This document shows positions 12,370 to 15,989 of a DNA stretch of 64,000 nt, piece after piece (positions within the stretch are counted from its first letter, which is position 1; each line of letters starts with the position of its first letter). Source of the stretch: Rhodoligotrophos sp. CJ14 (GTDB lineage: Bacteria; Pseudomonadota; Alphaproteobacteria; Rhizobiales; Im1); contig NZ_CP133319.1 of assembly GCF_038811545.1 (NCBI RefSeq), forward strand, positions 2,323,516 to 2,387,515, in the 5' to 3' direction. A program made the translations under genes and the position numbers. The notes below the pieces were generated by a model. The model searched no databases and was not told the DNA's origin. It saw only the letters and a list, made by a program, of their open reading frames with translations.

Positions 12370-13244
12370 TGAATCATCTATTGTTTTTGGGAATGGGTTA
12401 TTGCGGGCGCGCCCTGGCCGAGCGCCTGAAGGCACGTGGCTGGAGCATCACCGGCACGACGCGCAATCCGGAGAAGGCGAAGGACCTCGAGGCTGAAGGC
12501 ATACGCAGCGTGCTCTTCAACGGCGGGGAGCCGATGGCTGATATCGACAATGTGCTGGCGGGCGTCACGCACGTCATTGCCTCCATTCCCCCCGACGATG
12601 ACGGCGACCTCTTCCTCAGGGCGCATAATCATGACCTCGCCCGCCATGCCGGTCACATTCAATGGGCCGGCTACCTTTCGACCACGGGTGTCTATGGCGA
12701 CAGCGATGGTGAATGGGTGGGCGAGGATGCGCCGACCGCTCCGACCACGCGTGCCGGGACGCGCCGCCTTCTGGCCGAGCAGCAATGGCAGGCTTTGGCA
12801 GCGCAAAGCGGGCTGCCCCTCCACATCTTCCGCATCGCGGGCATATACGGACCGGGCACCCGCAACCAGATCGATCAGGTGAAGCAGGGGACCGCCAAGC
12901 GGATCCTCAAGGCGAATCACTATGTGGGACGTGTGCACCGCGACGACATTGTCGGGATCCTCGAGGCCTCCATCGCCATGCCCAATCCAGGCCGGATCTA
13001 TAATGTCGTCGACCACGAGCCATCCGCGCCCGAAGAGGTGATTGCGTTCACCGCGCAGCTTTTGGGTATCGAGCCCCCGCCCGCCATTCCCTTCGAAGAG
13101 GCTGATCCGTCAGGTGTTGCGCGCAACTTCTTCTCGGGCAGTAAGCGCGTATCCAATGCCCGGGTTCGCGAAGAGCTTGGCTACAGCTTCCTCTATCCGA
13201 CCTACAGAGAAGGAATGCGGTCCATCATTTCTGAGGCTGGATAA
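12369..13244 (+). CDS. NAD(P)-binding SDR/epimerase, YeeZ-like
   Basis: A 291-residue extended/atypical short-chain dehydrogenase. The nucleotide motif is FLGMGYCGRALAERL (G-x-G-x-x-G, about 6-20), and there is YLSTTGVYGDSDGEWV with the catalytic-type Thr/Tyr region. It resembles the YeeZ/YlbK group of sugar-nucleotide-like epimerases with unknown substrate. It starts inside the queG stop codon and has GGAGCTGG upstream, so the two are translated together. The 3' end overlaps the convergent hydrolase gene by 20 bases. Confidence 0.82.
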   Translation: MNHLLFLGMGYCGRALAERLKARGWSITGTTRNPEKAKDLEAEGIRSVLFNGGEPMADIDNVLAGVTHVIASIPPDDDGDLFLRAHNHDLARHAGHIQWAGYLSTTGVYGDSDGEWVGEDAPTAPTTRAGTRRLLAEQQWQALAAQSGLPLHIFRIAGIYGPGTRNQIDQVKQGTAKRILKANHYVGRVHRDDIVGILEASIAMPNPGRIYNVVDHEPSAPEEVIAFTAQLLGIEPPPAIPFEEADPSGVARNFFSGSKRVSNARVREELGYSFLYPTYREGMRSIISEAG

Positions 13245-14031
13245 TTCTGTCAGCTCTCTCGCAGAGCGCCGCGCTCGTCTCCACCAGCAGGTTGAGCGAG
13301 CGGGCGTCCGACAAGCGGTGGTCTCCGCCCTTGACGAGGGTGAAGGCGACGTCCTCGCCCTCGATCGTCCTGTAGGCTTCCAGCCCGTGCAACCAGGGCA
13401 CGTCAGGATCCTGCTCTCCATGAATAATCCGTACGGGAACCGACGCGTGATAGGGCGCGTTCATCAGCCGATGATAATCGCCATCTTCGATTAGCTTGCG
13501 CGTTATGGGGTAAGGTCCGTCGCCATAGATCGAAGTCCTGTGCACGACGCCCTCGCTCATGAGCTGCTCCCGTTCCTGCTCGCTCATGGCTTGCGTAATC
13601 AGGGCGGCGGTCATATCTATGGCTGGTGCGATCAGCACCAATCCGTGGACGCGCCGTGCTTCGTTAGGAAATTCCGCCTTCAGTCTTCGCGCCAGCAGCA
13701 GAGCCAGCCATCCGCCCATGCTCGAGCCGAGGACAACTCGTGGCCCAGGTGCCTCCTCGCGGAACATCAGCACGGCTTCGTCGAGCCACGTCGAGATGGT
13801 TCCTTCGGTGAACACTCCGCCCGATGCGCCATGCCCGGAATAATCAAAACGGACCAGGTTGCGCTCCTGCGCGACCGCCCATTGCGCGAGCGTGCTTGCC
13901 TTTTCGCCGGTCATGACGGATTTGAAGCCGTTGAGCCAGAACAAACCGCAGCGGTCGGGCCGAAGAGGGCCTTCGCGAACATAGGCCAAGCGGGTAGAAT
14001 GGGACTGGCGATAGGCGATGGGTGTAACCAT
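13225..14031 (-). CDS. Alpha/beta hydrolase (ABHD10-like)
   Basis: A 268-residue serine hydrolase. Visible elements are the oxyanion-region strand FWLNGFKSVMTGEKA (about 31-45), the strand RFDYSGHGASGG, the nucleophile elbow GSSMGG (about 102-107), the acid in IIHGEQDPDVPW and the histidine in KGGDHRLSD. This order matches the ABHD10/palmitoyl-thioesterase-like group found next to housekeeping genes in alphaproteobacteria. The substrate is unknown, but ester or thioester hydrolysis is expected. It converges with the SDR gene and diverges from infC. Confidence 0.88.
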   Translation of the reverse strand: MVTPIAYRQSHSTRLAYVREGPLRPDRCGLFWLNGFKSVMTGEKASTLAQWAVAQERNLVRFDYSGHGASGGVFTEGTISTWLDEAVLMFREEAPGPRVVLGSSMGGWLALLLARRLKAEFPNEARRVHGLVLIAPAIDMTAALITQAMSEQEREQLMSEGVVHRTSIYGDGPYPITRKLIEDGDYHRLMNAPYHASVPVRIIHGEQDPDVPWLHGLEAYRTIEGEDVAFTLVKGGDHRLSDARSLNLLVETSAALCERADRIIQPQK

Positions 14032-14200
14032 GCTAAGCCCTGTGAAAGCTTTTGGTGGTTCAAGATGAAGCCTGTGCTTGACTTGCTGCCTTGAGTTCCA
14101 GATTGATATGTGCCTCGATCGGCAAAGATTTCAGCCTAGCGATTTCGATCGTAATGGCTGACAGGTAGTCCTCCGATTAACAGCAGAAGGAGATAGCAAC

Positions 14201-14740
14201 ATAGCCCGCAGACCGTTTAGAGCGCCGCCGACCCGTGATGATGGTCCACGCGCCAATGACCGAATCCAGGCCCGCGAAGTATTGGTTATCGACCAAGAAG
14301 GGGAGAAACGCGGCATTATGCGGACAGAGGACGCGATCGAACTCGCCATGGAGGCTGGTCTCGATCTCGTGGAGGTCTCGCCGACCGCTCAGCCGCCCGT
14401 CTGCAAGATCCTGGATTACGGCAAGCTCAAGTACCAGACCCAGAAGCGCACCAACGAAGCCCGCAAGAAGCAGAAGACCATCGAGATCAAGGAGATCAAG
14501 ATGCGTCCGAACATCGACACGCATGACTATGACGTGAAGATGCGCTCCATGCAGCGGTTCTTCGAGGAGGGCGACAAGGTTAAGGTGACCTTGCGTTTCC
14601 GCGGCCGCGAGATGGCGCATCAGGATCTCGGTATGAAGCTGCTGGAGCGAGTGCGCGATGACATCATGGATCGAGCCAAGGTCGAGCTCGAGCCGCGACT
14701 GGAAGGTCGCCAGATGATAATGGTCCTGGCCCCTCGCTAA
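14201..14740 (+). CDS. infC: Translation initiation factor IF-3, apparent ATA start
   Basis: IF-3 binds the 30S subunit and proofreads start codon and initiator tRNA. The 179 residues have the N-domain ([22 protein letters not shown]) and C-domain ([31 protein letters not shown], shortened here to key residues H, K, R). A perfect AAGGAG at 14187-14192 sits 8 bases before ATA at 14201, which opens a product beginning [14 protein letters not shown] after the initiator. No ATG, GTG or TTG occurs in frame between the upstream stop (14159) and TTG 14282, which would delete the conserved N-terminus. Rare start codons on infC are known to support autoregulation, as with AUU in E. coli. Confidence 0.93.
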
Positions 14741-14748
14741 TTCGTCTT

Positions 14749-14772
14749 GGCCTCTCCCGCCCGGGGGAGGCC
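14749..14772. terminator. Terminator-like hairpin after infC
   Basis: A 10-bp stem, GGCCTCTCCC with GGGGGAGGCC (one T-G pair), closes a GCCC loop 8 bases after the infC stop and 10 bases before the convergent permease stop. There is no strong T tract; position and stem strength support a bidirectional terminator. Confidence 0.55.
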
Positions 14773-14781
14773 ACCGATAAG

Positions 14782-15693
14782 CTATTTGCCTCTCGGCCGA
14801 AAGCGCAGCGACCGAAACTGAATTTGCGCGAGCGCGGCCCCGCAGATCACCAGCACGCCACCTACAGCCTGCATGGGTGATACCGTTTGCCCGAGCAGCA
14901 ACGCGAACACCATCGTGTAGAACGGGATGAGATTGTTGTGCATGGCGGCCACTGTGACGCCAAGCAGCCGGCACGCGGCCATCCAGAACACCGATGAGAG
15001 CCCGATGGCGATACAGCCAAGCCAGGCGAGCAGCGCAAGCGTCTTGGGATCAAAGGAATAGGCGAGATCAACCAGCCCCGACAGACCAGCGATCACCGCG
15101 ATCGGCGCGGTCACGACGGCGGAAGCAGCGGCTGTGACGGCCGCCCGTGAAAGATCCGAGAGCGTGGCCAGTCGGTCGACCGAGATCCGTGTGAACAGCA
15201 CGAACAGCACTGTCGAGGCAAACACGAGCAATTCGCCCAAGCCGATCGCCGCAATGGCCGCCGGCCTATCCTCGCCCATCATGCTGATGACCCCTCCGGC
15301 GATCGCGAGCACGACACCTGCAACGAGCGCGAGGCTCAAGCGCTCGCGCCCGGTTACCGTCCCCACCACCGCAGATATGGCAGGCATGGACGCGACGATG
15401 ATCGCCACATTGACGGGGTCGGCATAGGCTTGCCCCCAGACGAGCATCTGCCCCGACAGCCCCATGGCGCCGCCAGCGAGCATGATGTCCTTGCTGAGGC
15501 GGATATTGAGGCGTGGCAGCCCTTCCCAGGCCGCCACGATGATCAGGAGCACGACCCCGGCGAATGCCATGCGGCTTGGCATGACGAGGAGCGGATGCCA
15601 GGATTTCAGGATCTCGGCTGCGGCCGGCAAACCGGTTGCCCAGACAAGCATCGACAAGACACCGGCAAGATTGCCGAATACGCGGGGTGACAC
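14782..15693 (-). CDS. EamA/DMT superfamily permease
   Basis: Ten-helix inner-membrane transporter with two EamA domains (first roughly LAGVLSMLVWATGLPAAAEI onward; second from GLGELLVFASTVLFVLFTRI to the C-terminus). The GTG at 15693 starts immediately before the first helix and has GGGAAAG upstream; an ATG at 15756 would add 21 mostly hydrophilic residues with two cysteines and is the main alternative. The gene lies antisense between infC and rpmI, which are contiguous in many other bacteria. Substrate unknown. Confidence 0.83.
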   Translation of the reverse strand: MSPRVFGNLAGVLSMLVWATGLPAAAEILKSWHPLLVMPSRMAFAGVVLLIIVAAWEGLPRLNIRLSKDIMLAGGAMGLSGQMLVWGQAYADPVNVAIIVASMPAISAVVGTVTGRERLSLALVAGVVLAIAGGVISMMGEDRPAAIAAIGLGELLVFASTVLFVLFTRISVDRLATLSDLSRAAVTAAASAVVTAPIAVIAGLSGLVDLAYSFDPKTLALLAWLGCIAIGLSSVFWMAACRLLGVTVAAMHNNLIPFYTMVFALLLGQTVSPMQAVGGVLVICGAALAQIQFRSLRFRPRGK

Positions 15694-15989
15694 GGGGCAG
15701 GCTTTCCCTGGGGCAGCGGTGCCGCCACAATGGCAAGCCCCGACTCGCGCAGACATCGCAGGCTCATCTTTCCCCACGGCATCAAGCCTGCAAGCGTATT
15801 CTGCGCAATGCATGCATTCCGAAACTTGCATCCGGCGCGCGCAGACCCTATAAGCAGCACGCATCGAGCTGGCCGGCCTTGGCAAGGGCATGCCGTGCCG
15901 GCTCTGAAGGCTTCAATGGAAGCGGCGTCTCGCATCTGCCTCTCCGGGGGCGGCGGAGGCGCCTATTTTGCTGAATGAAAGGAAGCAAA

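Follow-up and report, generated by a model that had tools for sequence, protein, structure and literature searches.

The infC gene of Rhodoligotrophos sp. CJ14, which encodes translation initiation factor IF-3, appears to start with ATA at position 14201 of the window, as we call the 64,000-nucleotide stretch of DNA analyzed here, and not with TTG at 14282. This placement, which the initial annotation had proposed, is supported by comparisons with relatives, by alignment placement, and by same-locus controls. We put at about 85% the probability that infC is translated from this AUA by fMet-tRNA, positioned by the Shine-Dalgarno (SD) sequence, with IF3 repressing its own synthesis on the poorly paired codon. 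Most of the relatives examined keep AUA, AUC, or AUU (AUH) at infC codon 1, a conserved start that is probably of the self-regulating kind.

The identity of the protein is clear from profile scans. The frame from 14162 scored 242 bits against TIGR00168 (cut-off, 60), and both PF05198 and PF00707 scored above their cut-offs, which identifies the product as IF-3. The genome, a single 4.8-Mb contig, contains one IF3 match. The window protein is identical to Escherichia coli IF3 at 99 of 174 aligned positions, including all 11 of E. coli positions 75, 99, 107, 110, 112, 116, 129, 131, 133, 147, and 168, which we take to be those implicated in 30S/RNA binding or codon discrimination. Counted from ATA, the TIGR00168 match does not begin until residue 15, which counts against this placement of the start.

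Direct reading of the 5' end of infC gives AAGGAG, a spacer of 8 nt, and ATA followed by GCC CGC AGA CCG (Table 1). From the upstream in-frame TGA to TTG 14282 the frame contains no ATG, GTG, or TTG, and a start at this TTG, codon 28, would remove 27 of the 179 residues encoded between ATA and the stop at 14738 to 14740. On these three points (SD sequence, lack of conventional start codons, and a loss of about 27 residues), the description in the initial annotation was accurate. By comparison, the frame belongs with genes that start at AUU, AUC, or AUA, and it has an SD sequence at a working distance. By itself the SD sequence is modest evidence for ATA 14201 (when the 25 nt preceding it in the window were shuffled, at least 6 matches at a legal spacing occurred in 2.3% of draws); comparison with other genomes provides the strong evidence. 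ATA accounts for 5 of the 99 Ile codons in four neighboring genes.

Table 1. Features at and around infC, in window coordinates
Feature	Position	Strand	Basis
Alpha/beta hydrolase gene, divergent, upstream of infC	13225-14031	minus	
Conserved block TGCTTGACTTG ... AGATTGATA	14075..14108	+	alignment of 4 family members
In-frame TGA, closes the frame upstream	14159..14161	+	direct reading
Shine-Dalgarno sequence AAGGAG, 8 nt 5' of ATA	14187..14192	+	AGGAGA 14188-14193 invariant in 4 family members
infC start codon ATA (supported)	14201..14203	+	sequence, alignment, surveys, family comparison
infC, initiation factor IF-3, 179 residues	14201..14740	+	TIGR00168, PF05198, and PF00707 profile scans
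TTG, codon 28, rejected start	14282..14284	+	CTG/CTC/CAG in three nearest relatives; no SD
EamA transporter gene, downstream of infC, before rpmI and rplT	14782-15891	reverse	

The search turned up three further genomes of the family, G002, the congener G001 (locus L083), and G003 (locus L084), giving four with the window. At the position of the window ATA, where the initial annotation had suggested that related genomes be compared, they read ATC, ATA, and ATC, respectively. The nearest upstream in-frame stops lie at codon -14 in the window and at codons -14, -5, and -7 in the three relatives. All four proteins share the same residue at 18 of codons 1 to 22 versus 2 of the 13 codons from -13 to -1, and those two lie in the SD sequence; protein conservation among the four members starts at codon 1. 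The infC gene of G003 is split by a frameshift about 190 bases after ATC, at a run of five C's, which is probably a sequencing error in this one-contig assembly.

Translation could instead begin at TTG 14282, the earliest conventional start in the frame of the window, with the upstream similarity being incidental. This codon is not conserved, its counterparts in the three nearest relatives being CTG, CTC, and CAG. In these relatives the first conventional codon is ATG at codon 40, and a start there would cost 39 residues. The SD and shuffling test applied to ATA 14201 found no SD sequence for TTG 14282. A start at TTG would also discard 27 residues, the first 22 of which contain the 18 positions conserved in the four family members, and would lower the PF05198 score from 107 to 91 bits. 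Non-conservation and the lack of an SD sequence rule this codon out as the start, and we give it next to no chance. Gene finders that consider only ATG, GTG, and TTG would misplace the start, and IF3 would lose 27 residues in the window and 39 in each of the three nearest relatives.

For a wider view, infC starts were called in 343 distinct loci from 358 fetched, with a caller that picks the candidate with the best SD sequence. AUH starts were called in 80 of 80 named relatives, 82 of 83 loci from the same order (the other was GTG), 98 of 117 loci of a class set (7 conventional, 12 without an SD sequence), all 23 loci of a mixed phylum set, and 36 of 40 loci from other Proteobacteria (one GTG, 3 without an SD sequence). 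Since the named set consists of the 80 best among 545 relatives and the order set partly of best matches, the shares of ATA, ATT, and ATC in these two sets are biased. In L198 and L319, both called AUH, ATG comes directly after this codon, so that ATG is possible there. In 129 of the 343 loci, the stretch from the upstream stop to residue 22 contained no ATG, GTG, or TTG. A draw across the order matched 386 of 397 genomes, and reading was confined to those for which loci or fetched stretches were available. In a phylum draw, 46 of 89 nonalphaproteobacterial genomes were read, and five of these 46 lie outside the survey counts; four of the five extra loci have AUH with an SD sequence (one of them, L377, with ATG directly after), and L379 has ATC without one. 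In two loci, L369 (G496) and L372 (G446), the IF3 N-domain is preceded by a long extension rich in Gly, Pro, and Arg, and no start was found in the stretch read.

The frequency of SD sequences among starts chosen by SD is circular and was not used. The start was instead placed by alignment, which makes no use of the SD sequence, in the 267 loci that align with the window protein from residue 1 or 3 onward. Placed in this way, codon 1 was ATT in 115 loci, ATA in 88, and ATC in 51, i.e., ATH in 254 of 267, and ATG in none. Each of the remaining positions between -4 and +5, counted from this codon, had 0 to 29 ATH codons. For the remaining 13 loci, the SD caller gives a nearby AUH start in ten (alignment offsets) and a conventional start in three: ATG in L167, TTG in L250, and GTG in L298. 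The last of these, from G050 of the same order, has GTG at the homologous first codon, and its draft genome is estimated to be 84% complete. An SD sequence of at least 5 matches at a legal distance was found for 80% of alignment-placed loci at codon 1, for 79% one codon to either side (-1 and +1), and for 0.4 to 3% at positions -4, -3, and +3 to +5 relative to codon 1. Since it is as frequent for the two flanking codons as for codon 1, the SD sequence marks the region of the start, and which codon is used there follows from conservation. Comparison across these sequences shows where the start lies and that a rare AUH codon is conserved there.

The same loci provided controls. Residue 1 was ATG in 87 of 88 rpmI and 79 of 80 rplT genes, and infC in these loci had 87 AUH starts and one ATG (n = 88). 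The SD caller returned 81 ATG, one GTG, one ATC, and 5 genes without an SD sequence for rpmI and 74 ATG, one GTG, one ATC, and 4 without for rplT. One false ATC in each implies that about one false AUH per 80 to 90 calls is to be expected from the caller. For E. coli K-12 infC, which is annotated from ATT, the caller recovered ATT when given the annotated frame.

An even draw of 144 genomes across the Alphaproteobacteria gave 143 matches, of which 140 were read (G412, G415, and G536 were left out). ATA was the commonest infC start (82/140), followed by ATC (27), ATT (11), ATG (10), TTG (4), and GTG (2), with four loci given no call. The 16 conventional starts indicate that the rare codon is not indispensable. 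Twenty-nine calls were made manually, 15 at loci fetched later and read by eye and 14 at loci with no SD sequence or an improbable caller choice; they comprise 14 AUH, 11 conventional, and four without a call. A sequencing or assembly error that made ATA at 14201 out of a conventional start, the possibility that the initial annotation had named as refuting its reading, is contradicted by ATA in the congener and by these class counts, and the one-contig genome also speaks against it; no support for such an error was found, and we regard it as extremely improbable.

Codon 1 does not behave like other isoleucine codons. The internal Ile codons of 177 infC genes were 1,357 ATC, 370 ATT, and 72 ATA; from each gene's internal usage, 6.9 ATA starts would be expected, and 51 were observed, which sets infC codon 1 apart from ordinary Ile codons. 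When 179 AUH loci were placed on an IF3 tree, parsimony gave at least 26 changes among ATA, ATT, and ATC at codon 1, versus 62 to 70 changes in ten of 50 shuffles of the labels. Two of 181 rows were dropped from this tree, L167, whose ATG lies two codons upstream of the aligned one, and L154, which the caller read as GTG and we read as ATA. Assuming that the codon changes to G as readily as to either of the other two bases, the probability that all 26 changes miss G would be 2.6e-5, a rough value that depends on parsimony and on a tree in which only 33 of 175 inner branches are well supported. The start of infC, whose product itself reads start codons, looks as if it is under selection not to be AUG.

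Conventional infC starts in the class draw clustered in small genomes, a lead that is sensitive to manual calls and lacks confirmation on the tree. Genomes of ≤2.0 Mb (n = 52) had 32 AUH starts, 16 conventional starts, and four without a call; none of the 88 larger genomes had a conventional start. Fisher's test on 32 AUH and 16 conventional starts (48 small genomes) versus 88 and 0 gave P = 8.6e-9, a value that rests on the manual calls. Six of the 88 larger genomes are manual AUH calls: the caller had chosen GTG and ATG inside the gene in L154 and L251, and it had accepted no SD sequence in L216, L224, L255, and L256. The caller alone, covering 125 of the 140 genomes, gave 25 AUH, 5 conventional, and 8 without an SD sequence in small genomes and 81, 2, and 4 in larger ones (P = 0.014); with only the 8 SD-bearing conventional starts, P was 5.4e-5. 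Independent pairs on the IF3 tree (12 changes, two well-supported pairs; a weak tree) showed no significance. After manual review, conventional starts such as those of L254, L259, L270, L371, and L373 were seen only in genomes of ≤2.0 Mb. Kinship could also explain the genome size pattern. That Alphaproteobacteria favor AUA over AUU and AUC, beyond codon usage, as a tuned feedback strength and that reduced genomes (≤2.0 Mb) have repeatedly abandoned the rare codon is a speculation that we consider rather unlikely; if true, IF3 autoregulation would be dispensable in reduced-genome lineages.

By analogy with E. coli, the initiator fMet-tRNA would start infC at AUA 14201, where the SD sequence AAGGAG would place initiation. 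The third position of AUA would pair poorly with the CAU anticodon, and IF3 would destabilize initiation complexes on such a codon, so that abundant IF3 would repress its own synthesis and scarce IF3 would relieve the repression, a negative feedback. A role for the AUA codon in IF3 autoregulation can soundly be inferred from the AUU of E. coli and from the retention of AUH among relatives. In E. coli, changing the infC start to AUG reportedly abolished repression (Butler, 1987). One report gives ATT as the infC start of E. coli and ATC as that of Streptomyces and describes infC translation as autoregulated by IF3 (PMC5472188); another describes strong third-position pairs as favored by IF3 (PMC10158994). 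A retapamulin ribosome profiling study describes ribosome density at the AUA start of Staphylococcus aureus infC and suggests autoregulation (PMC13009471).

Alternatively, AUA might simply be weak as a start and reduce the output of IF3, without any feedback. The S. aureus study would fit this, as the output of cvfC1, ccpN, and citZ reporters starting with AUU or AUA was about 10% of that with AUG in poor medium; in rich medium one of them reached up to 30% (PMC13009471). Against it, IF3 itself discriminates such codons, and the source on Streptomyces treats feedback as established for the E. coli AUU (PMC5472188). We think an AUA without feedback improbable and favor autoregulation. In Listeria, whose infC starts with ATT, rsbW reporters ranked ATG > ATA > ATT (PMC13068326). 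The natural series of AUA, AUC, AUU, and conventional starts would allow feedback strength to be compared across infC genes.

Upstream of infC, the conserved block is invariant at 11 of 11 and 8 of 9 positions in the alignment of the four family members. TGCTTGACTTG and AGATTGATA resemble a -35 and a -10 region, and the block is likely the infC promoter. A scan of 13950 to 14900 for sigma-70 consensus promoters and terminators found nothing, including at this block. The leader from 14112 to 14240 showed no unusual fold (z = 0.33), and Rfam gave no match near infC at the gathering threshold; a structured leader was dropped as a candidate on these grounds. The EamA gene parts infC from rpmI and rplT, while infC of E. 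coli K-12 is directly followed by rpmI.

Among the results of searches in an open-access library, in which few subscription journals are represented, we recognized no paper on infC starts in Alphaproteobacteria. In the Caulobacter ribosome profiling paper (PMC4117421), AUA, AUU, ATA, and IF3 are absent, and IF-3 occurs in one reference only; the passages available of PMC8266586 and PMC9845219 contain nothing about alphaproteobacterial infC start codons. AUA as another version of the rare infC start, as the initial annotation had it, is not new: this form is already known from S. aureus (PMC13009471), and it is the majority form in the class draw. Our analysis adds that, in this alphaproteobacterial draw, infC starts with AUA more often than with any other codon. 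Gvozdjak and Samanta are said to have described genes preferring non-AUG starts (arXiv, 2020), and their set may already include infC with AUA.

Among the closest known systems is E. coli infC, the same gene with a rare AUH start after an SD sequence and with the 11 IF3 positions listed above identical in the window. The two differ in the codon, AUU in E. coli and AUA here, and in setting: thrS ends 3 bases before infC in E. coli, whereas in the window infC is preceded by the conserved block and a divergent neighbor. The infC genes of Listeria (ATT, PMC13068326) and Streptomyces (ATC, PMC5472188) likewise have a rare AUH start but differ in the third base. S. aureus infC shares the AUA start and the proposed autoregulation; it belongs to another phylum, and its start was found by experiment, whereas that of the window was found by comparison (PMC13009471).
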